Part shown: piece by piece, positions 1,178 through 32,658 of the stretch | How positions within the stretch are numbered: position 1 is the first letter of the stretch | Layout of the letters: every line of letters starts with the position of its first letter | Source: Spirochaetes bacterium ADurb.Bin215 | Lineage (GTDB): Bacteria; Spirochaetota; Spirochaetia; Treponematales; Treponemataceae | Length of the DNA: 32,842 nucleotides | Reading direction: 5' to 3' | Assembly: GCA_002070025.1 (NCBI GenBank) | Contig: MWCL01000020.1 | Coordinates: 1-32,842, forward strand | Notes under the pieces: model-generated | Seen by the model: the letters and a program-made list of their open reading frames with translations, nothing else | What the model was told of the DNA's origin: nothing | Databases searched by the model: none | Made by a program: the position numbers and the translations under genes

Positions 1178-1738
1178 TTAGAATTCCGCGGATTGCGGGG
1201 TTCTTGGGAATGGGATGACGTCGCGGATGTTGGCCATACCAGTGCAGAAGCGCACCATGCGTTCGAAGCCGAGTCCGAAGCCGGCATGCGGTACGGTGCC
1301 GAAACGGCGCAAATCACAATACCACCAGTAATCTTCGGGCTTCATGCCAATTTCGCGGATGCGGTTTTCGAGGACATCAAGGCGTTCTTCGCGCTGACTG
1401 CCTCCGATGATTTCGCCGACCGTGGGCAACAGCACATCCATTGCTGCGACAGTCTTCTGGTCGTCATTCATGCGCATATAAAAGGCCTTGATCTCCTTGG
1501 GATAATTCATCACAATCACCGGCCCCTTGAAAAGGACTTCAGCCAGATAACGCTCATGCTCCGATTGCAGGTCAATGCCCCAGTATGGCTTGAATTCAAA
1601 CTTTTCCGCATTCTTCTCCAGCAACGCAATCGCTTCAGTGTAGGTAATGCGGGTGAATTTCGCTTCTGCCAGACGTCCCAGATTGTCCAGGAGGCCTTTC
1701 TCAGTGCGGTCATTGAAAAATTGGAGGTCATCGGGTCT
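1178..1738 (-). pseudogene. asnS: Asparaginyl-tRNA synthetase, C-terminal fragment cut at a junction
   Basis: This encodes the last ~186 residues of class II asparaginyl-tRNA synthetase, which charges tRNA-Asn with asparagine. The fragment reads through the typical core: [47 protein letters not shown] and motif 3 ([11 protein letters not shown]), ending [12 protein letters not shown]. Similarity stops near 1730-1738 (around RPDDLQFF); beyond it the open frame continues only to an in-frame stop at 1817-1819 with no AsnRS-like sequence. About 270 N-terminal residues, including the anticodon-binding domain and motifs 1-2, are absent. There is no frameshift or decay inside the fragment, which fits a recent or artificial break better than an old pseudogene. 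The ending resembles Lentisphaerae/Verrucomicrobia enzymes (inference). Confidence 0.88.
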
Positions 1739-1771
1739 GAGGCGGAGGACTTCCCGGAAAAGGAAACGGCG
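1739..1771. other. Junction between two unrelated DNA blocks
   Basis: On the left, AsnRS (minus strand) loses similarity at about 1735. On the right, a spirochaete-type transglutaminase-like protein (plus strand) is already in mid-sequence by about 1772. Both genes are truncated at the same ~35-base interval and they face each other through it. No transposase, tRNA or clear direct repeat marks the site. The break is best explained by a chimeric assembly; a genomic rearrangement is the alternative. Confidence 0.6.
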
Positions 1772-2371
1772 GGAACGGTAGCTTGCGGCGGGCGTACACG
1801 TATGGTTCCTTTCAACTCAGTTGATCAGGATGCCAATCAGGCTATTGTTAACCGGGAATTCTCGCTACTCACCGCGTACCTGAATACGCCGCTCGTATAT
1901 CCGGCGTGGAACCGGTATTACCGCATGATTTATCGGGATGCCTGGAAGCGCATTGAACGTGCGGCGTTTGTCATGGAATCATGTTTGCCCGAAACGGCAG
2001 AAGAAAAAACGGCGTCCATTCTATCATGGACCCAGGAGTTCACCTATGAGCGGGACCGCGACGGCGCCGACTTCATGAACATTCCGCAGGCATTCATGAC
2101 AAGAACCGGCGACTGCGACAGCAGGGCGCTGCTCATGGTTCTTTTGCTGAAACAGATGGGCGTTGACGCGATCCTGCTGGTTTCACCCGAATTCAGCCAT
2201 GCCCTCGCAGCGGTAGACTGTCCGGGCACGGGAGCCCGTTTCTCATATGAGGGTAAAGACTACCTGATCGCGGACACAACCGCGAAGGTCGCGCCCGGCC
2301 GTATCGCGAGCGACATGGCCGATCCGGACAAGTGGTTCGCTGTCAGCTTCCACGATCCGGCGCTTCCCTGA
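1772..2371 (+). pseudogene. Transglutaminase-like cysteine protease domain protein, N-terminus missing
   Basis: The visible ~199 residues contain a transglutaminase-like catalytic triad: Cys in TGDCDSRALL (about 2106-2135), His in SHALAAV (about 2197-2217) and Asp in LIADTTAK (about 2265-2288). The preceding region is helical with many aromatic residues (WNRYYRMIYRDAWKRIERA). Such proteins act as peptidases or amide-bond hydrolases; the substrate is unknown. The true start, and any signal peptide, lies beyond the junction at 1739-1771. The plus-strand frame happens to stay open leftwards to 1193, but that part is only the antisense of asnS. It converges with the HTH-EIIA gene, with one base between the two stop codons. 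Confidence 0.75.
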
Positions 2372-10346: not shown

Positions 10347-12974
10347 TCAGCGCTCTCCGGACTTTTTCCGATAGCGGAATCCGGTTACGTCAAATGCCTT
10401 TTCCGATACAATAACGGTGTTCCGGTCCGTCCACAACGCCGTGTCGGCATTGGTACCGGTCGTCCCCGATCGAACCAGACGAAGTCCCGAAATCACGAGC
10501 CGTGAACCCCAGCATTCAATCGCCCGCGCAGCCCGTTCCGCGGATACGACAATATCCGAATTGATGAACGTCGCGCGACCGCCCGTTACCGCGACAGCGG
10601 ATACAATGCGCGCAGAGGATTCAATGTGACAATCCCGAACATGGAAATTCGAGTTTCGAACATCCACTGCGGTTCCGTAGTCTACCGATTCAGTGTGTAT
10701 TTTCACGGATTTGAATGTAGCATGTGAATTCTCGACGCGAATAACCGGCGCGTTTGTTGCGGTACGATCAAGGATTGCACACTCGTCAATGGAAAGCGTT
10801 CCGTTCGCTACTTCCATGAGCGGAACCGGCGAAACCTGCTGAGTCCGGTCTATTTCACGGCCGTTCCGTTCAAGAGTGATTCCCGACAGCGAAAGATTGT
10901 TCGAATACGAACGAAGCACCGCAGCCGGACCGGCTTGAAGTACCGCTTTAGTCCCTATAAGCGAAACTGATGAACGAAGCGTGTGCGGACGTTCCAGGGC
11001 AACAGAGCCTCGTACCAGTATACGCCAGGGATCCGGCCCCTCGACAAGGTCAAGCGCTGAATCAAGATCGGTAAATGGCGCTGAAGGACTCCCGTCGGAA
11101 GGGAGCGTACCGCGGTACCCCGAATCGACATACACCGCATTCCGGTCAATAGTCATTGTTTGTTCAACTATCGGGCTGCGGTTTCCGGCGCGGTCAACGG
11201 AAAACGACCGTATCGTATAGGTAATTGACTTCGCCGGATTACCGGTTAATACCCAGGCTGATCCGGTATGTTCATACTGCTCCGGAACCAGGGAAACCTG
11301 TACCATGTCCTCACCGCTCACACGAAGCGGCAAAGGTTCACGCGACCATGAAAGATCTGCAGGAATTCCGAGAGAAGGAACACGGGGCGGTTTTCGGTCC
11401 AGTGTAAACCGGGCAGTAAGTTCACCGTGCATGATACCGTCATGATACGCAGCCAGACGAACAGTACAGGTTTCGGAGGCGCCGTGCGGTGTTTCCAGCA
11501 ACAGACCGCTTGCAAGAACCGGCGAATGTTCATATACCGGAGGTCCGGGAAGAAAATCCCCGCCGGTTGAATAATACAACGTAAAGGGAGACGCACTGGC
11601 GGAAAGAAAAACGGGATTCGCCGTTACGCCGCCGGCCGGAAGTCCGGATAACTGCGGTTTTGCCGGAAGCGAAATGGTGCGAACCTTTCCGCCATCCCAT
11701 GACGGGGAATACCAGTGAATGACGGCATCTTTCTTCCGGTCAAGAACAACCGGCTCAGTGTACTGTGTCCATGAAGATCCGTCACGAGAATAAAAAACCG
11801 GTGCGGAATGGGATACGGAAAAGAAATGCCAGTCGTGAATCGAGACTTTCGGTTGAAGGGGGTTCTCTCCGTCCGTCTTTTCGGACGGCAGGGCAGACGG
11901 CGAAGTTCCGACGGCACAAATCCAGCGCCAGTAAACGGCACCGTTGCGGACGGTAACCGGATACATGCGGCGAACTCCCTCGGGAACGGTAAAAAGAAGA
12001 CTCTTGCGGGGCTGACCGGAATTCCATGGATTTCCGATTGTTGCGGTAAATCCTTCGGGAAGGGTTGCTTCATAAAATGGACCGGCCTCGAATACTCCAT
12101 CGGTAAGCGATATCGACTGATCCAGGACGGATGCTTGTTCAGCAACCGTATACAAGACTGTTTCGGTCCACGGCGTGCCATCGGCTCCCCGGGCGCTTAC
12201 CCGGAGCGTTACCGGACCCGATTCATCAAGAAGTACCGGTCCGTTATAGGTCTTTCCCGAAACAAGCGGATCGCTTCCATCGGTTGTATACCGAATCTCC
12301 GTTTCCGGCCGGGTATCAAGCAGCAGTGTCTGACGATTCGCCCAGGAACCGGGAACAGGATTCACCATAACAAAGGGTTTCCCCGCATGTACGCCGTTTT
12401 CTGCGGTTGCCGACGACGGCAGACTCCGGTTCCCGGCACGGTCTTCCGCGAAGGCGCAGATAACCGTGTCCTCGGGAATAAACACAGAGTCACGATCGGA
12501 AACGGAACCCCGGGATACCGCTTGGTAATACGGATGATAAAGCACATAGTGCATAACCGCCGGTTCGTCTGAACGTATTCTTGCCTGTGCGCCACCGTCG
12601 ACCCGGTTAAGCACAAAGCGCGGCGAAGCCGGCTGTTTTTTGTCAATTATCCATTCAAAAACCCGGGATTCAAGAAGCGGCGAATCCGGATCGAGGCTGC
12701 GAAGTTCTGTCTGAATGCGGTAGGAACGCTGCTCACCGTATTCTGCGTAGAGCAACAGGGGTGATGCGATATCGTCGAGCCGTTTCCCGTCAAGGTACAC
12801 CGTAAGACGGGCGTCAGGCGGGGTTCGTATGGAAAGCAACTGATCAGTCGCATAAGAGCCGGGAACGGGAATCACGGTTACCCCGTGTTCAGCATGAAGC
12901 AGGAAACCCGCCAGCAGGAGAAGTACCGTGAGAGCCGGTTTTACACTTCCGATCACATGCCTTCCCGGTTTCAT
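10347..12974 (-). CDS. Large exported protein: chitobiase-like repeats plus C-terminal beta-helix
   Basis: An 875-residue protein with a signal peptide (hydrophobic core about residues 13-26, ending near LLHAEHG). Residues ~30-620 hold repeating beta-sandwich units like the chitobiase/hexosaminidase C-terminal (CHB_HEX_C) module, for example NPVPGSWANRQTLLL followed by IRYTTDGSDP, and two copies of DRAGNRS. Residues ~630-860 look like a right-handed parallel beta-helix: PFTDLDSALDLV, then short turns such as LSLSGITLERNG, TFKSVKI and ISGLRLVRSG. No catalytic residues are recognised, so it may be a surface or periplasmic adhesin or carbohydrate-binding protein. Its ATG overlaps the phosphoribosyltransferase stop by one base (TAATG), and rnhB follows at once. 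Confidence 0.72.
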   Translation of the reverse strand: MKPGRHVIGSVKPALTVLLLLAGFLLHAEHGVTVIPVPGSYATDQLLSIRTPPDARLTVYLDGKRLDDIASPLLLYAEYGEQRSYRIQTELRSLDPDSPLLESRVFEWIIDKKQPASPRFVLNRVDGGAQARIRSDEPAVMHYVLYHPYYQAVSRGSVSDRDSVFIPEDTVICAFAEDRAGNRSLPSSATAENGVHAGKPFVMVNPVPGSWANRQTLLLDTRPETEIRYTTDGSDPLVSGKTYNGPVLLDESGPVTLRVSARGADGTPWTETVLYTVAEQASVLDQSISLTDGVFEAGPFYEATLPEGFTATIGNPWNSGQPRKSLLFTVPEGVRRMYPVTVRNGAVYWRWICAVGTSPSALPSEKTDGENPLQPKVSIHDWHFFSVSHSAPVFYSRDGSSWTQYTEPVVLDRKKDAVIHWYSPSWDGGKVRTISLPAKPQLSGLPAGGVTANPVFLSASASPFTLYYSTGGDFLPGPPVYEHSPVLASGLLLETPHGASETCTVRLAAYHDGIMHGELTARFTLDRKPPRVPSLGIPADLSWSREPLPLRVSGEDMVQVSLVPEQYEHTGSAWVLTGNPAKSITYTIRSFSVDRAGNRSPIVEQTMTIDRNAVYVDSGYRGTLPSDGSPSAPFTDLDSALDLVEGPDPWRILVRGSVALERPHTLRSSVSLIGTKAVLQAGPAAVLRSYSNNLSLSGITLERNGREIDRTQQVSPVPLMEVANGTLSIDECAILDRTATNAPVIRVENSHATFKSVKIHTESVDYGTAVDVRNSNFHVRDCHIESSARIVSAVAVTGGRATFINSDIVVSAERAARAIECWGSRLVISGLRLVRSGTTGTNADTALWTDRNTVIVSEKAFDVTGFRYRKKSGER

Positions 12975-18441: not shown

Positions 18442-19869
18442 TTAACTACCCGCCTTCTTTGTCAGCGCGGGATCGCGCGAACCGTAGGTATCAACCGCGT
18501 TCTGCATGTATTTTTCGATGAATTCAGGCTTGATCCGGTACAGCTCGTTCCGCGGCAGATAGGAAAGAACCCACCAACCGATATCGAGGGTCTCGCCAAT
18601 GCTCCGGTTCTCGAACTCACCCTGGGAAAGAAACTGTTGTTCAAACAGTTCGCCGAAGCGGAGGTACATTTTATCCGTGTCCGAAAGCTCTTCCTCGCCG
18701 ATGATCGACGCGAGGTTGCGGATGTTCTTTACCTTGGAATACGCGGCAAAAAGCTGACTCGAGACATCCTTGTGGTCTTCCCGGGTCATACCCTCGCCGA
18801 TACCGTCCTTCATGAGACGGGAAAGGCTCGGAAGCCCGGCAACCGGCGGATACACCCCTTTTTGCGAAAGCTCGCGGCCAAGCACGATCTGGCCTTCGGT
18901 AATATAACCGGTAAGGTCCGGAATGGGGTGACTGATGTCGTCGTTGGGCATGGTAAGTATGGGAATCTGGGTAATGGACCCCTCAGAACCCTTTATGCGC
19001 CCCGCCCGCTCATAGAGCTCGGCGAGATCGGAATACAGATAGCCGGGATACCCTTTCCGTCCGGGTACTTCCCCTCGGGTGGTCGAGATTTCGCGAAGCG
19101 CCTCACAGTAGTTGGTCATGTCCGTAAGCACCACGAGTACATGCATGTTCTTTTCGTACGCGAGGTATTCAGCCGCGGTCAGGGCGCAGCGCGGCGTTAT
19201 GATGCGCTCGATGGACGGCGCGTCCGCGAGGGACAGGAACATGGCTACACGGGAGAGTACCCCCGATTTTTCGAAGTTGTCGATGAAAAAACGTGCAACG
19301 TCGTATTTGATACCCATGCCGGCAAAAACCATCACGAAACTCTCGTCGGCCGAAAGAATTTTCGCCTGACGGATAATCTGGGCGGTAAGCCGGTTATGGG
19401 GCAGACCGTTCCCTGAGAACACCGGAAGCTTTTGTCCGCGAATGAGGGTATTCATGCCGTCTATGGCCGATATGCCGGTCTGGATAAAATCTCGGGGATA
19501 AATACGCGCATAGGGATTGATGGGATACCCGTTTACATTGATCATTTTCGACGAGTAGAGTTCGGGATACCCGTCTATCGGCTTTCCGAGGCCGTTGAAA
19601 ATGCGGCCCATGAGTCCTTCGGAGACCCGAAGCTCCATCGGAGTTTCAAGGAATTCAACAGTCGTTTCATCAAGCGAAAGCCCCGAAGTTGAACCGAAGA
19701 CCTGTACGACACAGACGTCGTCGGACACATCGATAACCCGGCCGGTACGTACCGCTCCCCGGATGTCGCGTACGGACACGATCTCTCCGTACGACACGTT
19801 TTCCCGTCTCTTGACTATGACAATGGGACCGTCAACCAATTCGACGCCCCGGTATTCAACACCTCTCAT
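18442..19869 (-). CDS. atpB: V-type ATPase subunit B
   Basis: A 475-residue non-catalytic head subunit, three copies of which alternate with A. The P-loop is replaced by [15 protein letters not shown], the normal B-type sequence, so it binds but does not hydrolyse nucleotide. The blocks [20 protein letters not shown] and [20 protein letters not shown] are characteristic. The start overlaps the subunit A stop (ATGA). Length is slightly above the usual ~460 residues because of a polar C-terminal tail. Confidence 0.96.
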
Positions 19870-21638
19870 ACAAGTTCCGCCTTCCGGTACAACCGTTCCA
19901 GTTCATCAAGCTGCTGGTTCATGCGGGTTTCCACACCGGTAATTCCCGCAAGATCCTCGTTAGTATAGGTGGTTTTAATACGGACGATATCCTCCCGGCA
20001 GGGAAGATTCACCAGTTTTTCCAGGGGCGCACCGTTGCGGATAATGCTCCGGGCACGCCGGTAAAATTCCATGATGATGGCGAGAATCATGATTTGTTTT
20101 TCCGGAACGGAGAACATGTCGGTCTCGTCAAAGGCGCTTTGCTGCAAAAACCCGTTCTTGATCATTTCAGCGGCGACCAGAATGATGCGCTCCGTGTCCG
20201 GCAGCGCGTCCGGCCCGATGAGGCGGACAATCTGTTCAAGGCGTTGTTCCCGCTTGAGCAGATCAAGCGCCTTGAGGCGGACATCGTTCCAGCGCGGATC
20301 AAGCCGATCCCACCAGGGGCGAATTTCATCGGCGTATTCCGAATAGGATTCTATCCAGCCGATGGCCGGATAGTGCCGCGCGTTCGCGAGATCCCGGTCA
20401 AGCGCCCAGAAACAGCGGATAAAGCGTTTGGTATGCTGGGTAACCGGCTCGGAGAAGTCGCCTCCGGGCGGAGAAACCGCGCCGATAATGGAAACCGATC
20501 CCCCATCTCCGCAGAGCGCGGTGATGCGGCCGGCGCGTTCATAAAACTCGGCAAGCCGGGTGGGCAAATAAGCGGGAAATCCTTCTTCCGCGGGCATTTC
20601 TTCCATGCGACCTGAAAGCTCGCGCAGCGCTTCCGCCCAGCGGCTGGTGGAGTCGGCCATGATGGCAACATCCATACCCATGTCGCGGTAATATTCAGCG
20701 AGCGTTATGCCGGAATACAGGGAAACTTCACGCGCCGCGACCGGCATGTTCGAGGTATTCGCAATGAGGATGGTCCGTTCCATGAGGGACCGTCCCGTTC
20801 GGGGATCGATGAGTTCGGGAAATTCGGATAGAACGTCCGTCATTTCGTTTCCGCGTTCGCCGCAGCCGATATACACGATGATGTCCGCGTCGCACCATTT
20901 GGCGACCGCGTGCTGGGTCATTGTTTTACCGGTGCCGAATCCGCCGGGAATCGCGGCGGTGCCTCCCTTTGAAAGGGGGAAGAACACGTCGATAACCCGC
21001 TGTCCGGTAATGAGCGGTTCGGACACGGAAAGCTTTTCACGGTATGGGCGGGGTTTCCGCACCGGCCAGTAATGGGCCATGAAAATTGTTTCGTCTTGGT
21101 CTGTCTTCGCGATGGGTTCGTCTATGGTATAGTCGCCTTCCGGTGCGATCCAGACAAGCTTGGTACCGAGAATGGTCGGGGGCACCATGATCTTGTGCAC
21201 TACCGATTCGGTTTCGCGGACCGTTCCAAGTACGAAACCCGTATGTATATCCTGCCCGGCGGCTGCCGGGGTAAAATGCCATTTTTTCGTTTCATCAAGC
21301 GGTACGCTTCTGACGCCGGGAAGGAGAAATGACCCGGACGAGTCAAAAAGTGTCTTCAGGGGACGCTGGATTCCGTCGTAGATGGTCCCAACGAGTCCGG
21401 GTCCCAGCCGAACCGAAAGCGGTCGGAGATGACATTCAACCGTTTCACCGATACGCATACCGGTATCATCTTCATAGACCTGTATGGTCGCGATGCCGTC
21501 TCGAAGACGGATAATCTCACCGATCAGGGAGGATTTTCCCACATACACCACGTCGTACAATCCGCACGATTCAAGTCCGGAGGCATATACGATCGGGCCT
21601 GATATTCGGGTTACCGTTCCCTGTATAATTTCGTTCAT
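19866..21638 (-). CDS. atpA: V-type ATPase catalytic subunit A
   Basis: A 590-residue catalytic subunit, which hydrolyses or makes ATP in the A3B3 head. The Walker A motif is GGFGTGKT (232-239); the Walker B region reads [17 protein letters not shown]. The non-homologous insert found in V/A-type but not F-type ATPases is present (about 115-190, with [14 protein letters not shown]). [17 protein letters not shown] and [13 protein letters not shown] are further signatures. ATG 21638 overlaps the subunit E stop by 4 bases and has GGGAGG upstream. Confidence 0.97.
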
Positions 21639-22261
21639 TCAGGCAACCTCCCGCCCATGAGCGCCAGAGCGAGTTCCTGACGATACCCGTCCATGAGTTC
21701 GGCAAAAAGCTCCTCGCGTGTCGCACGGCATACTATGGCCCGGTCCGCCGTTTCAAGATAGAAGCCGTCGGAAAAACCGAGCTTCGCCGCTTCCTCGGCG
21801 GACAGTTCCTGAACCGAGCACTGCGAGTCTGATTCAAAAATGCCGCACAGGAGTTCTCCCACCTTCGCCGTATCATAGCCGATAAAGCGGACCGTTACGG
21901 ATTTGTCCGCAAGAATTGACCGGAACTTTGTGATCATTCCGGCATATATTTTAAGGCGCCGCTCGTGACTGATTCCTTCAAACCAGTCGGCAAGCGCGTT
22001 CATGACCGCGGTATCAACAAACGAGACAATCCGCCGCTGTTTTTCCAGCGGGATGGCGGATCCGGTGTCCGCGCGATAGGATTCGGCCATACGTTCATAT
22101 TCACGGCGTTTCTCTTCGCGTATCGTTTCGATACGAAGGGAAACGTCGTCAAGAATTCTGCCGGCTTCCTTCTCGCCGTCTTTGAGTATCTTTTCCGCTT
22201 TTCGCCGGGCGTCATCCTGTATTTCCCGGTCAAGTATTTCCGTAGAACGTAGCTCTTCCAT
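21635..22261 (-). CDS. atpE: V-type ATPase subunit E (peripheral stalk)
   Basis: A 208-residue peripheral-stalk subunit. The first ~85 residues are a charged helix ([26 protein letters not shown]) expected to pair with the small coiled-coil subunit; the C-terminal half is the globular head-binding domain. ATG 22261 fits AGAGAG 8 bases upstream better than the TTG at 22267. It lies 12 bases after subunit F. The identity rests on length, coiled-coil pattern and position. Confidence 0.82.
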
Positions 22262-22273
22262 TATCAAATCTCT

Positions 22274-22615
22274 CTATACACGTATACCGATCGCTTCCCG
22301 AATGGAATCGGTAAGGGTTTTCCGCCCGGGCAGATGCCCATGCAGGCCGGGTATTTCAACAATGAGCGGATATTCGGCGCTCATCTGCCATTCGCGGACT
22401 TCTTCTTCCAGCATGGCGGACGCTTCCTCGGTCAGGATCAGCACCTTCGCACGATCTTCGGCAACCGGTGCGCCACCGGCAAGGAGGCTTCCACGGCCGG
22501 TTACCCGGTAAAAAGCGTCGAGGGCTTCTTCCCGGTTACGGACGACCGTACCCGGGACGCCAACCAGAGAAAAGCCGAGCACAAGCTCGCGTTCCCCGAT
22601 TATCCAGTACTTCAC
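22274..22615 (-). CDS. atpF: V-type ATPase subunit F
   Basis: A 113-residue central-stalk subunit that sits beside D. The pattern KYWIIGERELVLGFSLVGV, then ALDAFYRV, AKVLILTEEASAMLEEEVREW and PLIVEIPGLHG, is the standard F-subunit Rossmann-like fold. The start codon is GTG 22615, supported by AGGG 6 bases upstream and by similarity beginning there. It lies 13 bases after the subunit K stop. Confidence 0.92.
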   Translation of the reverse strand: MKYWIIGERELVLGFSLVGVPGTVVRNREEALDAFYRVTGRGSLLAGGAPVAEDRAKVLILTEEASAMLEEEVREWQMSAEYPLIVEIPGLHGHLPGRKTLTDSIREAIGIRV

Positions 22616-22628
22616 AACAAGCCCTGCG

Positions 22629-22937
22629 TTAAAAGAGAATGATCAGAAGCGCGACCAGAAAGCCCCAGAGACAAATTCCTTCGGCAAGACCGACGAAGGG
22701 CAACGCCTTTCCGGACAGTTCGGCGTTTTCACTCATGGCTCCCATGGCCGCGGCGCCGATGCGTCCAACAGCCATTCCTCCGGCGATACAGGCAATACCG
22801 ACGGCGATGGCGGCGGCAATGTACTTGAAAGCCGAAGACGTAGCGGCCGCGGCTTCCGGTGTAGCGGCACCTTCATTGGCGAAAACCAGCACGCCTGCAG
22901 CTATGAATCCCGCAGCAATTAACAATTTACGATTCAT
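22629..22937 (-). CDS. atpK: V-type ATPase membrane-ring subunit K (c-type)
   Basis: A 102-residue proteolipid of the rotor ring. It has a hydrophobic N-terminal segment (about 4-20), probably a signal or extra membrane helix, an Ala/Glu linker, then the c-type hairpin (about 38-66 and 79-102). The ion-binding carboxylate is likely Glu86 in GLAEGICLWG. It has the single-hairpin form rather than the double-length (about 155-residue) K of Enterococcus. Whether H+ or Na+ is carried cannot be decided by eye. ATG 22937 has AAGGAGA 6 bases upstream; the open frame extends to 23015 but that part overlaps subunit I. One base separates it from the I stop. Confidence 0.92.
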   Translation of the reverse strand: MNRKLLIAAGFIAAGVLVFANEGAATPEAAAATSSAFKYIAAAIAVGIACIAGGMAVGRIGAAAMGAMSENAELSGKALPFVGLAEGICLWGFLVALLIILF

Positions 22938-22938
22938 G

Positions 22939-24921
22939 TCATTTCTCCTTGTAAGTAAATCTGAAGGGCGTAAATTCCCTCCCGGTTTCAGTAAAGAACT
23001 TTGAAAAGAATTCATAGTACTGGAGACGTATTACCTGAATGGTAACAATGAGCCCTTCCAGAACAATGATGACCAGATTGCCGAATATACCGATTATCAG
23101 ACCTCCGGCGGAAAGCGACCCGCCTACCAGATCCGACATGGTGAAAATGATGAAACTTAATACCGCGTGGGAAAGCGCGAACGCTCCGACACGGAGAAAA
23201 CTGACCGAGTTCGAAATATTGGTGGAAACCACTTCCAGAACTTCAACGACACCCTCGATCATGGCCGAAAAAAGCCCGTTCTCAAGAATGGGCCGATGTC
23301 CTTCCACAAGCCGGCTGAAGGGCTCGGCAAAGAAAAGACCCAGAAGGATTGTTCCCAGCACCACTGCGTCTATCCAGACGAAGGGAATCGAGAACACCAG
23401 AATCCGGACGATCATGAATACGGAATACCAGAAAAAGAAGGCGCCCAGCAATCCGGTTTTACTGAAGATGGCTTTTGCCGGCCGTCCCAGCGAGAACTGG
23501 TTGATGATGTTTATGATCAGTCCTATCGAGTTGATGACGAATCCGATACAGAGCGTAAACCCGAAGAAATATATCAGTTTGTCCAGGGAGTCCTTGCTCG
23601 GCATCATTTCCAGTATCGCGTGACGCGGCTCACCCCACAAACCGGTGACCCAGTGGCCGAACGGTGCAAGCAGGGTTGAATTGGCAAAGAACTCTCCCGT
23701 TAGCAGACCCATTATCGTGCTCGATATGCCGATCGCGACAAATATGGGTCCGAAATGATTCCATTGGTACAGGGGAGGAATCAGTTTCTTGATCAGAAGA
23801 AAGCCAACGAGAAGAAAGACCAGTCCTTGTCCGGCGTCGCCGAACATGATCCCGAACAGCAGGGTAAAGAAAAAGGCGACCACCGGGGTAGGATCAATGG
23901 TTCCGTACAGGGGCGCCCCGTAACTGAAAATCATGCGTTCAAAACTTTTTACGAACTTTCCGTGCCGGTAGCGGACCGGTACTTTTTCCCTGCCGGCCTG
24001 TACGGACGGTACTTCTTCGGGTTCGTACACCCGGATGGCAATCCTTCCTTCGGTACAGTTATCCAGATCCTGCATGAGGGTGGTACTGTCATCCGCGGCT
24101 ATCCAGCCGAGAATGCGGTAAACCAGCTGGGTTGATTCCAGGGACTCCCGGACCGCCTGTACTCCAGCGGCAAGAGAAAAGGTTAACAGGAGCCGGATGA
24201 TTTCTGCCCTATGAATCGACGCGAACCGGGTCCGGTCTTCGATCACCCGCACCGCTTCGTCATTTGACTCGGCAACCTGCGCCTTGAGCCCTTCAATGAC
24301 ATCATCGGGAATTCCCTTGAAATCCGTGGGGATATCGAGGGGTATGAATCCGTATCGTTTCAGTTCGGTATCAAGCGCGAACCGCCCTTTTTTGGAGGAG
24401 GCGGCGAGAATGCGCGTATGGTCCTCACCGAGCGGAATGATTACGCCGCGGTCGCCGACCGCGAATTTGAGCTCATCCAGGTACTGGGGATCAATCTTTC
24501 CGAACCGCATCGACAAAAAGGTGAGATGTTCAAATTCACTGTAGGCAACTTTAAGGTTCGCGAAAGCCATTGCCTCGTCGTACGCGTTGGTTACCCGTTT
24601 TTTATGATCCAGGGCTTCCATCTCACGAGCCCTCAGATCCTCCACATCCGCCAGAATCTGCCGCGCCGAGCGATCATCGTCTTCTGTGGGGAGTGTTGTT
24701 TCAGGGGTATACTCAAAAACATCGGGAATACCGAGGTACGTACGGACCCCCTGAAGATTTGCTACCATCTCGCTGTAAGAATTATTGTGGTCAGCTCCGG
24801 AAAAATCAGTCTCGTTCTGAATCTGGAAATTGGCGTTCTTGCCGAGATACTCGAGTACACGGTCAATGTCCTGTTTGAGGATCATCAGTTCCACGAGCTT
24901 CATCTTCGATGTTCTAAGCAT
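22939..24921 (-). CDS. atpI: V-type ATPase membrane subunit I (stator, a-type)
   Basis: A 660-residue two-part subunit. The cytoplasmic half (about 1-330) is helical and binds the peripheral stalks. The C-terminal half has about seven to eight membrane helices, beginning near TPVVAFFFTLLFGIMFGDAGQG, and includes the conserved RVGAFALSHAVLSF whose Arg faces the rotor ring and completes the ion path. ATG 24921 is preferred because GAGGG lies upstream; it overlaps the end of subunit C by 8 bases. ATG 24903, where family similarity starts (MKLVELMILK), is an alternative. Confidence 0.95.
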   Translation of the reverse strand: MLRTSKMKLVELMILKQDIDRVLEYLGKNANFQIQNETDFSGADHNNSYSEMVANLQGVRTYLGIPDVFEYTPETTLPTEDDDRSARQILADVEDLRAREMEALDHKKRVTNAYDEAMAFANLKVAYSEFEHLTFLSMRFGKIDPQYLDELKFAVGDRGVIIPLGEDHTRILAASSKKGRFALDTELKRYGFIPLDIPTDFKGIPDDVIEGLKAQVAESNDEAVRVIEDRTRFASIHRAEIIRLLLTFSLAAGVQAVRESLESTQLVYRILGWIAADDSTTLMQDLDNCTEGRIAIRVYEPEEVPSVQAGREKVPVRYRHGKFVKSFERMIFSYGAPLYGTIDPTPVVAFFFTLLFGIMFGDAGQGLVFLLVGFLLIKKLIPPLYQWNHFGPIFVAIGISSTIMGLLTGEFFANSTLLAPFGHWVTGLWGEPRHAILEMMPSKDSLDKLIYFFGFTLCIGFVINSIGLIINIINQFSLGRPAKAIFSKTGLLGAFFFWYSVFMIVRILVFSIPFVWIDAVVLGTILLGLFFAEPFSRLVEGHRPILENGLFSAMIEGVVEVLEVVSTNISNSVSFLRVGAFALSHAVLSFIIFTMSDLVGGSLSAGGLIIGIFGNLVIIVLEGLIVTIQVIRLQYYEFFSKFFTETGREFTPFRFTYKEK

Positions 24922-25933
24922 TAAAGATATCCCTCACATATTCATTCAACTGGGTTTCATTTGCCCCGAGACGAAGTCCCTCAGCGGCGACACGGATCAT
25001 CTGGTCCTCCAGCTGTTTAATCTTGAGAAACGAAACCAGCACACCCACGGTGAACGGATTTTGGTGAAACAGGGACATTGCTGTCCGGAACAAGTACTTG
25101 TCCGCGGTTAACTGCGCCCAGCGGGGATCAAGCGTCCAGGGGAATCCCTCTTCATGGGGATTCAGCAACCATCCGTATTTCCAGCCGGTCCAGTCGGCAT
25201 GGGAATCAAACGCGCGGTCAAGCACGGAAAGGGCCGGCCCGCAAAGAATTTCACGGGTGGATTCCGGTTCATCATGACCGGCCAGCATTGATTCAATTTC
25301 GTCCGCACTGGTATTGTAATACGAAACGAGGCGCATCGCCCAGACTATGTTTTGCAGAATTATCTCTTCACGGATAAGGTTTTCCGTCGCGGCCCGATCC
25401 TTGCCGGAAAGCTGGAGGAAAGCACGCCACACGGACCGGTAATACTCATGATCTAGCCGGTTCTCCCAGGCGAGGTGTTCCGCTTCTTTTGGGACACGGT
25501 TAAACCAGGCGAGCGGTCCGTTTTTGGTCATCTCAGCGATATCGGGCCACTTTGTCCGGTCAAGAATTGAAAATTGCTTCAAGTCCACCATGAACGGAGG
25601 ATCTTTCTCTCCGGTGATAACGGCGGTAACCGCAGCCTTGAGATTGTTGTAGTCGTAGAAGGAAAGAAGGGCTTTCGATAAAGGATCCGGTGTGTCGTAC
25701 GAGGAAAGGAGTGTAATAAATTCGTCAACCGCTTTTTGTTCCGCCCGCCGTTCGAGATACAGCGTCAGTAATCCTTCAGGAACCAGGGGAACTTCATCGT
25801 TGAAGAGTGTTGTCCAGAGATCACGGAGGCGTTTTGCCTCAAACAGGCGCGGGGTCCGTTTTCCTACGAAAGAACGGGCATAAATACCGCTTGCTTTTGC
25901 ATATACATAGGAATCGGCGGCGAATCGGTCCAT
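24914..25933 (-). CDS. atpC: V-type ATPase subunit C (d/AC39 type)
   Basis: A 339-residue helical, funnel-shaped socket linking the central stalk to the membrane ring. The start YVYAKASGIYARSFVGKR, the middle YDYNNLKAAVTAVITG and the ending PFTVGVLVSFLKIKQLEDQMIRVAAEG are typical of the AC39 family. It begins 3 bases after the small coiled-coil gene and overlaps subunit I by 8 bases. Confidence 0.92.
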   Translation of the reverse strand: MDRFAADSYVYAKASGIYARSFVGKRTPRLFEAKRLRDLWTTLFNDEVPLVPEGLLTLYLERRAEQKAVDEFITLLSSYDTPDPLSKALLSFYDYNNLKAAVTAVITGEKDPPFMVDLKQFSILDRTKWPDIAEMTKNGPLAWFNRVPKEAEHLAWENRLDHEYYRSVWRAFLQLSGKDRAATENLIREEIILQNIVWAMRLVSYYNTSADEIESMLAGHDEPESTREILCGPALSVLDRAFDSHADWTGWKYGWLLNPHEEGFPWTLDPRWAQLTADKYLFRTAMSLFHQNPFTVGVLVSFLKIKQLEDQMIRVAAEGLRLGANETQLNEYVRDIFNA

Positions 25934-27220: not shown

Positions 27221-27970
27221 TTACTTGCACAGAGCGATGGGAGCGAATGTATCAGCCTTGAGCGCGGCTCCGCCGATAAGACCGCCGTCAATGTTTTCCT
27301 TGGCCAGAAGCGCTTCGGCGTTCTCCGCTTTCATTGAACCGCCGTACTGGATAACCATGGCAGCAGCAGCGTCCGCACCGTACATTTCGCCGACAACCTT
27401 GCGGATAAAGGCATGGATGGCATCCGCGTCTTCGGGAGTCGCGGTTTTTCCCGTTCCGATTGCCCAAACGGGTTCATAGGCGATGGTTACGCGCTTGAGA
27501 TCATCAGCTGAAACACCGGCAAGGCCCTTGCGGGTCTGTTCTTCGCACACTGCTTCCGCTTTTCCGGCTTCGCGTTCTTCCAGGAGTTCTCCCACGCAGA
27601 GGATTACTTCAAGGCCGTGGCTCAGCGCGAGCTTCACCTTGCGGTTGATCATGTCGTCGGTTTCGCTGTAGGTGTGGCGGCGCTCGGAGTGACCGAGAAT
27701 GACCACCTGGACGCCGAGGTCCTTGAGCTGGAGGACGGACACCTCGCCGGTGTGCGCGCCCTGCTCGTCGGTACTCATGTTCTGTGCGCCGAGAAGAATA
27801 TTGGTTCCGGAAACGACCTTCGATACGGCGTCGAGCGCGGTAAATGAAGGAGCGATCATGTATTTGTTGGGTCCGCCGGCGAGGGCGGAAACGAGGTCCT
27901 TGGCAAGAGCGACCGCTTCACCGGTGGTCTTGTGCATTTTCCAGTTGCCTGCAATAAAGTTCTTTCTCAT
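27221..27970 (-). CDS. tpiA: Triosephosphate isomerase
   Basis: A 249-residue TIM-barrel enzyme that interconverts dihydroxyacetone phosphate and glyceraldehyde 3-phosphate. The catalytic set is complete: Lys11 (GNWKMHK), His94 (ILGHSERR) and Glu166 (AYEPVWAIGTGKTAT). ATG 27970 has AGGAG 8 bases upstream; the open frame to 28078 is an artefact overlapping the end of pgk. It lies 25 bases after pgk, in the same operon. Confidence 0.98.
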   Translation of the reverse strand: MRKNFIAGNWKMHKTTGEAVALAKDLVSALAGGPNKYMIAPSFTALDAVSKVVSGTNILLGAQNMSTDEQGAHTGEVSVLQLKDLGVQVVILGHSERRHTYSETDDMINRKVKLALSHGLEVILCVGELLEEREAGKAEAVCEEQTRKGLAGVSADDLKRVTIAYEPVWAIGTGKTATPEDADAIHAFIRKVVGEMYGADAAAAMVIQYGGSMKAENAEALLAKENIDGGLIGGAALKADTFAPIALCK

Positions 27971-27995
27971 CGTATAGTCTCCTGATTTGGTGTAC

Positions 27996-29255
27996 TTATT
28001 TTGATTCAAGCGCGGCGATTCCGGGAAGGGTCTTACCTTCGAGGAACTCGAGCGAGGCGCCACCGCCGGTTGATACATGACTCATCTTCGAAGCAAGGTT
28101 GAACTTGTTGACCGCCGCGACCGAATCACCGCCGCCTACAACACTCATCGCGCCTGCGGCAGTCGCGTCGGCTACGAGATGGGCTACATCGCCGGTTCCC
28201 TTCGCGAATGCGTCAAACTCGAATACCCCGACCGGACCGTTCCAGACGATGGACTTCGATGCGAGAATGGTTTCCTTGTAAATAGCCCGGGTCTTGGGAC
28301 CAACATCCATACCCATCTTGCCGTCGGGGATGTCCAGCGCATCTACATTGGTAACCGGTGTGTCGGGAGCGAAGCCGTCGCCGCAAACATGGTCTACCGG
28401 AAGGATAATCTTGACATTCTTTGCCGAAGCGGCGGAAAGAAGGCTTTTTGCGGTATCGATAAAGTCGTCTTCAACGAGGGATTTTCCCACGGTGTGCCCC
28501 TGGGCCTTGAGGAAGGTGTAGGCCATACCGCCGCCGATGATGAGGGCGGAGGCGTTCTTGAGCAGGCTTTCGAGCACCGCGATCTTCGAGGAAACTTTCG
28601 CGCCGCCGATGATGGCGGTCATGGGCTTGGGAGGATTGGTAACCATGGGTTCGAGATATGCAACCTCTTTTTCCATGAGGAAGCCGCCGACCTTGACCTG
28701 CATGAACTTCGCGATGGTCGCGGTAGAGGCATGGGCACGGTGCGCGGTTCCGAACGCGTCATTTACATAGACATCGCCGTACGCTGCAAGTTCTTTTGCG
28801 AGCACTTCCTGTTCAGCAAGGTCTTTGGAAGTTTCTTCCTTGTGGAAACGGGTATTTTCGAGCATGAGGATGCCGCCCTCGGGAAGCGCGTCAACAGCGG
28901 CTTTCTGTCCGATGCAGGAATCGGCAAAGGCAACCGGAAGACCGAGCTTGCCGGAAAGATACTCGGCAACGGGTTTCATGCGGTGCTTGCCGGCGATGAA
29001 CGCGTCCATGTCAAACGCCTTGCCGTCTTTTTCCGCTTTCTCTTTGGCCTTCTTGGGGTCCTTGGCGGGATCGCCGAGATGGCTCATGAGCACGATTGAG
29101 CGGGGTTTTTGCTCGAGTATATATTTGATGGAGGGAAGCGCCGCGGTAATACGGGTATCATCCTGTACAACTCCGTCTTTCATGGGCACATTGAAATCTA
29201 CACGCATGATGATGCGCTTGCCTGAAAGGTCAACATCCTTGATTGTCTTTATCAT
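27996..29255 (-). CDS. pgk: Phosphoglycerate kinase
   Basis: A 419-residue glycolytic kinase, which transfers phosphate from 1,3-bisphosphoglycerate to ADP. The N-terminal substrate block [15 protein letters not shown], the hinge region and the nucleotide-binding [12 protein letters not shown] near the C-terminus are all present. Length is normal, with a small Lys/Asp-rich insertion after [23 protein letters not shown] 29255 has AGGAGG 8 bases upstream. First gene of the pgk-tpiA unit, with a near-consensus promoter overlapped by a palindrome. Confidence 0.98.
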
Positions 29256-29306
29256 ATACTGTTCCTCCTGGGGAAAATAAATAACGAGGCGTGGTTAATC
29301 GTCCAA

Positions 29307-29335
29307 AATATAGCAATTTACACCTGTTATGTAAA
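29307..29335 (-). promoter_or_regulatory. Sigma70 promoter of pgk-tpiA
   Basis: On the minus strand: TTTACA (plus 29330-29335, 5/6), a 17-base spacer and TATATT (plus 29307-29312, 5/6). The start of transcription would be about 45 bases before the pgk ATG. Confidence 0.68.
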
Positions 29336-29336
29336 T
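29316..29336. promoter_or_regulatory. Operator-like palindrome over the pgk promoter
   Basis: A perfect inverted repeat ATTTACA-N7-TGTAAAT on the minus strand (arms at plus 29330-29336 and 29316-29322). It covers the -35 hexamer and most of the spacer, the usual place for a repressor site. It does not match the Rex or CIRCE consensus as I know them. Confidence 0.5.
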
Positions 29337-29358
29337 AGGAGGTACCCCGTGGCAGCTG

Positions 29359-30222
29359 CTACCCGTTCTTCTTGATCCAGCTGTTTATGCCTTTCGCCGC
29401 ATGGGTGCCGTCGGAAACTGCCTTCGCGATCTGCAAAAATCCTCCGGTACAGTCGCCGGCAGCAAAGACACCGGGAATGTTGGTCATGAACTCGTCATTC
29501 ACCACAATATCCGTACCGTTGAGCTCCATCCCCAGGGTTGCCGCAAAGCTCGCGGCTCCAGCGGTTCCGAGCGCGGCGAAGACGCCGTCTACCGGACGCT
29601 CAGTTCCGTCTTCCGTGGTAATGGACGAAACGGAGTCCCCGCCGGAGAATGCGGTTATTTTTTCGGTGACAAAACGGGTATCATCAGGGAAATGGCCGGT
29701 TATCTCCGCGCCGTTGGTAAACACAACACGATCAGACGTAAAAGCGGCAAGTTCGGCGTATTCGTTTGCGGCATATTCGCCTGCGCCAAGCAGGGCAAGT
29801 TTTTTACCCCGGTAGAAGAAGCCGTCGCAAGTAACGCAGAAACTAATGCCCCGTCCGCGGAATTCTTCAAACCCGGGTACCTTGAGCGCGGCGCGCGCCT
29901 TACCGGTCGCAATGAGTACGGTCTTTGCGGTATGGTTTCCGCTGTCAGTCTTGACTGACCAGAGCTCCTCCATGCCGAGATGTACCACTTCTTCAGCCCG
30001 GACTTCGGCGCCGAGCCGTTCCGCCTGGGCTACGCCCCGGGCGGCAAGTTCTGCACCGGTCAGGGTTTCGGGAAATCCGTAGTAGTTTTCGATTGATTCC
30101 GCCCGTTCGAGCGCTCCTGCGTCTTTTCCGAGCACGAGCACCGTATGCCCCGACCGGACGAGATAGACCGCGGCGGAAATTCCCGCCGGTCCTTTTCCAA
30201 TGATTATTGTGTCGTATGTCAT
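29359..30222 (-). CDS. Thioredoxin-reductase-like flavoprotein lacking the NADPH signature
   Basis: A 287-residue flavoprotein disulfide reductase. FAD binding is shown by GKGPAG (9-14), and AGDC (255-258) in the late FAD block. The redox pair is Cys129/Cys132 in FCVTCDG, where thioredoxin reductases have CATC. The second nucleotide loop GAGEYA (146-151) is present, but the following HRRxxxR that grips the NADPH phosphate is missing (FTNG at 168-171 instead) and the domain is about 20 residues short. That is the pattern of pyridine-nucleotide-independent (ferredoxin-linked) thioredoxin reductases. It lies 45 bases after hom; no thioredoxin gene is adjacent. The Shine-Dalgarno is weak. Confidence 0.82.
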   Translation of the reverse strand: MTYDTIIIGKGPAGISAAVYLVRSGHTVLVLGKDAGALERAESIENYYGFPETLTGAELAARGVAQAERLGAEVRAEEVVHLGMEELWSVKTDSGNHTAKTVLIATGKARAALKVPGFEEFRGRGISFCVTCDGFFYRGKKLALLGAGEYAANEYAELAAFTSDRVVFTNGAEITGHFPDDTRFVTEKITAFSGGDSVSSITTEDGTERPVDGVFAALGTAGAASFAATLGMELNGTDIVVNDEFMTNIPGVFAAGDCTGGFLQIAKAVSDGTHAAKGINSWIKKNG

Positions 30223-30267
30223 ACTGTTAAATCTCGCGGATTATTGCACACAAGTAAAGTGACCAAA

Positions 30268-31563
30268 TCACAGTTGTTCGTCGCCGAGACCAACCCGGAT
30301 AACCGAGGCAACTTCCTGCACACAGGGAAGACCTTCAATCTCGTTGAGCGCGGCGCGCATTTTTTCCTCATTTACCCGATGCGTTACAATGGTAATGGTC
30401 GCCTTGCCGGCCTCGGCGTCAATCTGCTGGATCGCCTGGATACTCACCTCGTTGTTCGCGAAAATGTTCGAAAGCTTCGCGAGAACACCGGGCGCATCGT
30501 CTACCACACAGCGAATAAAGAAGCTGGTGAAGCATTCATTGATGGACATGACCTTTCGTTCGTTCAGCGCGAACTCGGTATCCCGGCTGAATGCGGTATC
30601 CCCCCGGAACGCCAGGTTCATCACATCGCCTACTACGGCGGAAGCAGTGGGAAGCTCCCCTGCCCCGCGGCCGTACAGCATGGACTCACCAAGGCTTTCG
30701 CCCTTGATATAAATCGCGTTAAAGGCATCCGAAACCGTGGCAAGGGGATGGTTTTTCTCTATCATGACGGGATGCACGCGGAGCTCGATGGCGTCCGGGT
30801 GATTGATACCCATGGCAAGCATCTTGATGGTGTAGCCGAACCGGTCTGCGGAACGGATATCCTCCGCCGAGATGCGGGTAATGCCCTCGCGGTAAATATC
30901 GTTGAAGCTTACCGAGCAACGGAACGCAAGCGACGCAAGAATCGAAAGCTTGTAGGCGGCGTCATAGCCCTCCACGTCGTTTTTGGGGTCCGCCTCCGCG
31001 TAGCCGAGCGCCTGCGCTTCCCTGAGGGTTTCACCGAAATCGGCGCCGGTTTCCGTCATCTTTGAAAGGATAAAGTTGGTCGTCCCGTTCACGATACCGA
31101 ATACCTTTTCGATACGATTAGCCGACAGGGAATTGCGGATCGCATGGAGTACGGGAATTCCGCCGCCCACCGCCGCTTCATAGAGGATAGTACAATTGTT
31201 TTTTTTCGCGAGATCGGTAAAACTCTTGCCGTGCTTGGCGATTACTTCCTTGTTGGAGGTAACTACATTCTTTCCGGCTTCGAGTGCCTTTTCAATAAAG
31301 CTGCGTGCCGGGTTTTCACCGCCGATTACTTCAACAACGGTATTTATTTCAGAGTCTTCAAGAATTGCGGCAATGTCATCGGTGAGCATTCCGGCGGGAA
31401 GTGTTATTCCCCGGTCAGTAGTGGTATCAAGGTCCACGATGCGTTTGAGTTCCACCCGGCATCCGGTGCGCTGCTCGAGAATTTCCCGGTCATTCAGGAG
31501 AATCTTCACGACACCCTTTCCCACCGTTCCAAAACCGATTACACCAACAACAATATCAGACAT
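30268..31563 (-). CDS. hom: Homoserine dehydrogenase
   Basis: A 431-residue enzyme of the aspartate pathway, which reduces aspartate semialdehyde to homoserine for threonine and methionine. The N-terminal Rossmann motif is GVIGFGTVGKG; the catalytic domain carries GIVNGTTNFIL and the KNDVEGYDAAYKL block with the catalytic Lys/Asp. A C-terminal ACT domain (about 350-425, VDDAPGVLAKLSNIFANNEV) suggests feedback control by threonine. ATG 31563 has GAGGAG 6 bases upstream; the frame upstream to 31638 runs through the gapA terminator. Confidence 0.97.
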   Translation of the reverse strand: MSDIVVGVIGFGTVGKGVVKILLNDREILEQRTGCRVELKRIVDLDTTTDRGITLPAGMLTDDIAAILEDSEINTVVEVIGGENPARSFIEKALEAGKNVVTSNKEVIAKHGKSFTDLAKKNNCTILYEAAVGGGIPVLHAIRNSLSANRIEKVFGIVNGTTNFILSKMTETGADFGETLREAQALGYAEADPKNDVEGYDAAYKLSILASLAFRCSVSFNDIYREGITRISAEDIRSADRFGYTIKMLAMGINHPDAIELRVHPVMIEKNHPLATVSDAFNAIYIKGESLGESMLYGRGAGELPTASAVVGDVMNLAFRGDTAFSRDTEFALNERKVMSINECFTSFFIRCVVDDAPGVLAKLSNIFANNEVSIQAIQQIDAEAGKATITIVTHRVNEEKMRAALNEIEGLPCVQEVASVIRVGLGDEQL

Positions 31564-31591
31564 GCAAGACTCCTCTTTTTCATTTTTTCCA

Positions 31592-31600
31592 CTATAGCAA
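31592..31600 (-). promoter_or_regulatory. Possible extended -10 promoter of hom
   Basis: The minus strand reads TG-C-TATAGT directly after the T-run of the gapA terminator. There is no -35, but an extended -10 needs none. It lies about 30 bases before the hom start codon. Confidence 0.4.
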
Positions 31601-31633
31601 AAAAAAGACCATCCGGCTAGCGGATGGTCTTTT
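31599..31633 (-). terminator. Rho-independent terminator after gapA
   Basis: A perfect 13-bp inverted repeat: AAAAGACCATCCG (minus strand, plus 31621-31633) pairs with CGGATGGTCTTTT (plus 31603-31615) around a 5-base loop, followed by an eight-T run. It starts 17 bases after the gapA stop. Confidence 0.92.
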
Positions 31634-31650
31634 CTCACGAGTGAGGTGTC

Positions 31651-32658
<1,008 letters not shown>

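Follow-up and report, generated by a model that had tools for sequence, protein, structure and literature searches.

A TRi-type thioredoxin reductase in a spirochaete genome and its candidate electron donor

The window analysed here, the whole 32,842-nucleotide stretch of contig MWCL01000020.1 from Spirochaetes bacterium ADurb.Bin215 (assembly GCA_002070025.1), carries a gene (Table 1) whose product is, judged by its sequence, a new spirochaete member of the known TRi family of thioredoxin reductases and not one of the ferredoxin-linked flavin thioredoxin reductases (FFTRs). The best explanation, and very probably the correct one, is that it is an NAD(P)H-independent, FAD-containing thioredoxin reductase of the TRi type. 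Also new here is the wide occurrence of TRi proteins, by sequence searches, among anaerobes of the Firmicutes, Mollicutes and Spirochaetes. Ferredoxin is the leading candidate for the electron donor; whether it is the donor, as we infer, is evenly balanced in our judgement.

The family takes its name from the 'isolated' thioredoxin reductase of Desulfovibrio vulgaris (DvTRi). In the available part of PMC5627308, neither NADPH nor NADH significantly reduces its FAD or supports benzyl viologen activity; once dithionite or the xanthine/xanthine oxidase system has reduced it, the enzyme goes on to reduce Trx1. Its Cys134 probably begins the exchange, and the second cysteine is likely the attacking one. 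A strain deleted for DvTRi has been published. According to the same part of that paper, 17 TRi homologs were known in 2017, from Deltaproteobacteria and Clostridia, a TQ/NGK motif was stated for all of them, and the authors left the donor open, giving a sequence argument against ferredoxin and naming flavodoxin as a candidate. For FFTRs, the accessible sections of PMC12796991 describe a dependence on ferredoxin and a flavin of very low potential; in the Gloeobacter enzyme GvFFTR the FAD lies below the disulfide, itself at about -356 mV. The clostridial enzymes are described in the accessible sections of PMC10880999. A search of the open-access literature found no later paper on the electron donor of TRi.

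Family assignment, motifs and predicted structure

In a phmmer search of solved structures the top match of the spirochaete protein was 5nii, the structure of DvTRi (E 6.7e-64, 219 bits), with NADPH enzymes at 154 bits or less and the clostridial FFTRs 6gnc, 6gna and 6gnd at 100-105 bits. A profile built from 75 sequences, namely 74 of the 80 proteins of the scan described below plus the spirochaete protein, ranked the structures with 5nii first (299 bits), followed by NADPH-type reductases (NTRs, at most 222), 6gna (201) and 5j60 (180). Pairwise identity is 42.7% to DvTRi over 281 residues, 29-30% to three FFTR sequences and 31.9% to the NADPH-type thioredoxin reductase of the same genome (locus L002). 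The protein matches, well above chance, Pfam Pyr_redox_2 (E 1.1e-28) and the NCBIfam model for thioredoxin-disulfide reductase, TIGR01292 (E 1.6e-58), yet its 197.9 bits fall below the curated cut-off of 343.45, so it is akin to an ordinary thioredoxin reductase but is not scored as one.

An unrooted maximum-likelihood tree, made by a quick method from 123 rows of which 119 differ, resolved three groups, each on a branch with SH-aLRT 99: 34 NTR-like proteins, three FFTRs, and 85 TRi proteins together with the spirochaete protein. DvTRi lies inside the TRi clade as a long branch. The NTR-like set leaves out L115, L131, L133 and L134 of the 22 loci L113-L134, and the FFTRs of the tree are of the clostridial type only; the Gloeobacter enzyme GvFFTR (5j60/6xtf, the latter a complex with its donor) is set against our protein by fold and profile alone. 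As a yardstick we used L021, an FFTR homolog carried by another spirochaete of this family (genome G023); its scores run in the reverse direction, with 251 bits for 6gna and 96 for 5nii. These reversed scores, the separate clades and the identity of 29% to clostridial FFTRs against 43% to DvTRi led us to reject membership of the FFTR family, to which the original prediction had matched the gene, and an FFTR query found no such gene in the organism's own genome (95.5% complete). The yardstick itself (L021:1453-2340, minus strand; 6gna E 1.5e-73) is a clostridial-type FFTR homolog that was unexpected in a spirochaete lineage.

The FAD motifs and the redox pair are kept, as had been predicted. 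Besides GKGPAG the protein has ATGK (residues 105-108) and AAGD (residues 254-257); across the 75 aligned sequences G9, G11, P12, C129 and C132 are invariant, and K10, A13 and G14 are at least 90% conserved. The CVTC form of the redox motif, earlier singled out as a notable difference, turns out to be one of eight variants among the best 80 of 301 relatives (CAVC 31, CAIC 16, CTTC 14, CATC 9, CVTC 5, CSTC 3, CVVC 1, CSVC 1), and we no longer regard it as a special feature.

The NADPH site is altered in several respects. HRRxxxR was not found in the 287-residue protein, where the alignment places TNGAEI at the equivalent position, and GGGxxAxE reads GAGEYAANE. Strict HRRxxxR occurs in 0 of the best 80 of 301 relatives versus 19 of the 34 NTR-like proteins, and GGGxxA in 0 of the same 80 versus 28 of 34. 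Loss of HRRxxxR by itself is weak evidence, because 15 of the 34 NTR-like proteins also lack the strict motif. In the flavin loop, 33 of 34 NTR-like proteins carry RQ, against 0 of the best 80 of 301 TRi relatives and 0 of 3 FFTRs; an alignment of 15 rows shows this loop one residue shorter in TRi and FFTR. The NADPH-type domain is indeed shortened, with 15 gap positions relative to the genome's own NADPH-type enzyme, nine of them in the region of the 2'-phosphate helix; the loss of about 20 residues first proposed for this domain fits instead the difference in total length (287 aa versus 302-316 aa in a sample of NTR-like lengths, with fusions cut at 330). At the position of the TQ/NGK motif the spirochaete protein retains TNG with the lysine replaced (TNGA), unlike the TQGK of DvTRi. 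TNGK is present in only 19 of the best 80 of 301 relatives, so its lysine is not general in the clade and was dropped as a family marker.

Use of NADPH is unlikely because both NADPH motifs are gone from the protein and from the whole clade, and because neither NADPH nor NADH reduces DvTRi. NADPH independence, the central claim of the original prediction, is thus well supported by homology.

An AlphaFold2 model built with the 75 sequences had a mean pLDDT of 93.6 and a pTM of 0.85. VIA-align ranked 5nii first (Z 37.9, rmsd 1.8 Å over 285 residues); the FFTR chains (6gna 28.7, 6xtf 27.9, 5j60 27.8, 6gnc 26.9, 6gnd 26.7) are not set apart by Z from NADPH-type chains at about 26-28. Whole-chain rmsd was 4.3-6.8 Å for FFTRs versus about 13-16 Å for full-length NADPH-type chains, large in the latter because their domains are turned differently; three further VIA-align rows with low rmsd cover only about 170-176 residues. 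Foldseek gave a TM score of 0.90 for 5nii; among the chains listed, FFTRs scored 0.64-0.72 and NADPH-type enzymes about 0.56-0.60, so that FFTRs are nearest after DvTRi to the open domain arrangement of the model. The NADPH-independent enzyme of T. acidophilum (3cty, 14.2 Å) is a counter-example, since it groups with the NADPH-type domain arrangement. The predicted fold fits DvTRi best, not an FFTR. Structure 5nii was probably among the data on which AlphaFold2 was trained, and for this reason the modelled conformation is not independent evidence.

Taken with DvTRi, the spirochaete protein shares its clade, its predicted fold, the loss of the NADPH motifs, a GxGxxAxN-type pyrophosphate site, the thioredoxin-binding G[R/K]G and FF, and the presence of a companion NADPH-type reductase in the genome. 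It differs in its host, which as a spirochaete belongs to neither of the groups (Deltaproteobacteria, Clostridia) given for TRi in 2017, and in the position of its gene between hom and pgk. With FFTRs (C. acetobutylicum 6gna, 6gnc and 6gnd; Gloeobacter 5j60 and 6xtf) it has in common the CxxC and the open domain arrangement, and with the clostridial-type sequences the absence of the NADPH motifs and of RQ; the available part of PMC12796991 shows ferredoxin dependence for FFTR, not for TRi. The overall fold, FAD site, CxxC and thioredoxin-binding residues are shared with NADPH-dependent reductases of the E. coli TrxB type such as L002, which differs by carrying GGGDAACDE, HRRDEFRA and RQ in its flavin loop and by having about 20 more residues.

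Table 1. Features of the gene, of its neighbourhood and of the rest of the window; the promoter-like sites come from a scan that found 7 against 3.5 expected
Feature	Position	Strand	Basis or remark
TRi-type thioredoxin reductase gene (tri)	29359..30222	(-)	ATG start, 287 aa; profile, tree and model evidence
FAD-binding GKGPAG, residues 9-14	30181..30198	(-)	sequence
GRG, thioredoxin-binding motif G[R/K]G, residues 123-125	29848..29856	(-)	sequence; motif as defined in the available part of PMC5627308
Redox-active CVTC, Cys129 and Cys132	29827..29838	(-)	sequence
FF, thioredoxin-contact phenylalanines, residues 135-136	29815..29820	(-)	sequence; at least 90% conserved
GAGEYAANE, degenerate pyrophosphate motif, residues 146-154	29761..29787	(-)	compare GEGxxAxN of DvTRi; replaces GGGxxAxE
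TNG replacing HRR, residues 169-171	29710..29718	(-)	compare TQGK of DvTRi
Flavin loop GDCTGGFLQ, residues 256-264	29431..29457	(-)	against NTR loop GDxRxxxxRQ one residue shorter, Arg absent (alignment)
gapA, homoserine dehydrogenase (hom), tri, pgk, tpi	27221-32649	(-)	short gaps; hom by Pfam; gapA, pgk, tpi by eye
Promoter-like site (11 of 12)	32710-32682		before gapA
Promoter-like site (10 of 12)	29335-29307		before pgk
V/A-type ATPase genes	18442-25933	(-)	two ATP-synt_ab subunits, subunit I, C/AC39 subunit (Pfam)
875-aa protein	10347-12974	(-)	only Fn3-associated and chitobiase C-terminal-like matches
392-aa ORF	1193-2371	(+)	no Pfam match at E 1e-8

Distribution and gene neighbourhood

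TRi was found in 11 of 12 genomes of the source genus (identity at least 58%, on our reading of the identities), in 3 of 24 genomes from the rest of the family (51-55% identity, one over partial length) and, at this identity level, in none of 23 genomes from the order's other families. A scan of named genomes returned 301 relatives, of which the best 80 all fall in the TRi clade and come from Spirochaetes, Clostridia, Oscillospiraceae, Acholeplasmataceae, Erysipelotrichales and one Fibrobacter. One relative, 45% identical and outside the tree, came from a plasmid search; it lies on a plasmid of Treponema saccharophilum and is annotated as an NAD(P)/FAD-dependent oxidoreductase. In four clostridial genomes (G104, G090, G079 Herbivorax and G099 Acetivibrio alkalicellulosi; loci L114, L116, L117 and L118) TRi stands in tandem with a second TrxB, whose motifs are GGGNSA and an altered, HQLDHFQA-like one. 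The organism's own genome carries the canonical NADPH-type reductase L002 (HRRDEFRA) on another contig, one WCGPC thioredoxin (trxA), a TlpA-like protein, a 2[4Fe-4S] ferredoxin and a rubredoxin.

The gene is preceded by gapA and hom and followed by pgk and tpi; along the run gapA, hom, tri, pgk, successive genes are 12, 45 and 103 bases apart. Each of hom, gapA and pgk has homologs close to tri in three to four loci. Among 79 of the 80 TRi loci (the best 80 of 301 relatives), counted by match coordinates with L039 missed, a gene for a WCxxC thioredoxin-like (trxA-like) protein adjoins tri on the same strand in 19 and lies within three genes in 26, with only two more at 4-10 genes. No trxA was found near tri in the near relatives of the spirochaete protein (eight of L033-L041 analysed). 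Some clostridial loci hold CcdA-like, TlpA-like and glutaredoxin-like genes in addition, as judged by eye. A pattern search for small ferredoxins and rubredoxins found neither within three genes of TRi in the 79 loci; larger iron-sulphur proteins occur within five genes in four loci, and none of the 30 most widespread listed neighbour families looks, by eye, like a carrier.

Candidate electron donors and alternative readings

The genomes examined for a donor were 47 TRi genomes, part of the 80 behind the scan loci; the near spirochaetes (L033-L041) are among the 33 left out. TRi is the sole match to TIGR01292 (E 1e-40) in 23 of the 47, and in all 23 of these TRi-only genomes an FFTR query (E 1e-12) also gave a single match. 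Searches for Fer4_9, rubredoxin and Flavodoxin_4 covered the 23 together with G000, G008, G010 and G011. Fer4_9, a 2[4Fe-4S] domain, is present in 23 of 23 and rubredoxin in 17. Flavodoxin_1 occurs in 20, mostly in frames of about 380-610 aa, and Flavodoxin_3, Flavodoxin_4 and Flavodoxin_5 in 10, 4 and 15, respectively. Over all four Pfam families, flavodoxin-like frames under 240 aa turned up in 16 of the 23 and in none of the other seven (G078, G084, G087, G089, G093, G094 and G095); the limit of 240 aa is more cautious than 220 and counts as flavodoxin the 231-aa frame of G102, a strong Flavodoxin_4 match. In four of these seven (G089, G093, G094 and G095) no rubredoxin frame under 120 aa was found either; each of the four does have a ferredoxin-like frame below 120 aa. 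In G094, whose genome has one Fer4_9 match in all, this frame is a typical 61-aa 2[4Fe-4S] ferredoxin.

These absences argue against flavodoxin or rubredoxin as a general donor and would leave ferredoxin, but as a case of elimination and not of proof, because most TRi-only genomes are metagenome-assembled (MAGs) and ferredoxin domains are near universal. Some absences may be gaps for that reason, the more so in G087 and G089, which share contigs with G027 and G017 (listed at 59% and 70% completeness) and are probably incomplete. Likewise the presence of ferredoxin proves little, since Fer4_9 was found in 13 of 14 control genomes among the matches listed and a ferredoxin in 14 of 14 by the search of frames under 120 aa. 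The loss of RQ from the flavin loop, common to TRi and FFTR, is a hint and would be a second pointer to ferredoxin; on an unrooted tree it may reflect either shared ancestry or convergence. Reduction of thioredoxin from ferredoxin, first proposed for this organism by way of an FFTR, is therefore now a reasonable hypothesis for the TRi family instead.

A TRi enzyme that takes its electrons from flavodoxin, the candidate of the DvTRi authors in the available part of PMC5627308, is unlikely: it would fit the 16 TRi-only genomes with short flavodoxin-like frames and not the seven without, incomplete as such MAGs may be, and in the organism's own genome, searched for two families, Flavodoxin_1 was confined to frames of 409 and 430 aa and Flavodoxin_4 had no match. 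We consider it just as doubtful that TRi receives its electrons from rubredoxin, from some other protein or from a donor in the membrane. The rubredoxin of the own genome and the TlpA-like, CcdA-like and glutaredoxin-like neighbours of some clostridial TRi genes are in keeping with such a donor, but rubredoxin had no match in 6 of the 23 TRi-only genomes, and rubredoxin potentials are usually too high for thioredoxin reduction. A relaxed enzyme that retains weak use of NADH or NADPH is highly improbable; NTR-like proteins without strict HRRxxxR show that this motif can be missing from that group, but the pyrophosphate motif is kept in none of the best 80 of 301 relatives, and DvTRi, in the accessible text of PMC5627308, had neither significant FAD reduction by NADPH or NADH nor benzyl viologen activity. 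That the protein is a true clostridial-type FFTR reduced by ferredoxin, as its lost NADPH motifs and RQ and its domain arrangement might suggest, can be dismissed as extremely improbable in view of its identities, its separate clade and the opposite scores of L021.

Returning to a ferredoxin-reduced TRi, we infer by analogy that the spirochaete protein would share the chemistry of DvTRi. A one-electron carrier, presumably a small 2[4Fe-4S] ferredoxin, would reduce the FAD in two steps; after a domain swing the flavin would hand the electron pair to the Cys129-Cys132 disulfide, and Cys132 would then attack the disulfide of the cell's WCGPC thioredoxin. With ferredoxin as the carrier, TRi would be a second entry of electrons to thioredoxin, beside the cell's own NADPH-type enzyme.

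We tentatively suggest, as a wider reading that may well prove wrong, that TRi forms, alongside the distinct FFTRs, a second family of flavin thioredoxin reductases that depend on ferredoxin. Spread through anaerobic Firmicutes, Mollicutes and Spirochaetes, TRi would in many small-genome anaerobes be the sole route to thioredoxin, so that thiol balance would follow the ferredoxin pool and not NADPH. The TRi-only genomes, among them the four in which neither a small flavodoxin nor a small rubredoxin was found, make the donor question directly testable. With ferredoxin as the donor, many anaerobes of gut and sediment would have their thioredoxin reduction tied to pyruvate and hydrogen metabolism rather than to NADPH.
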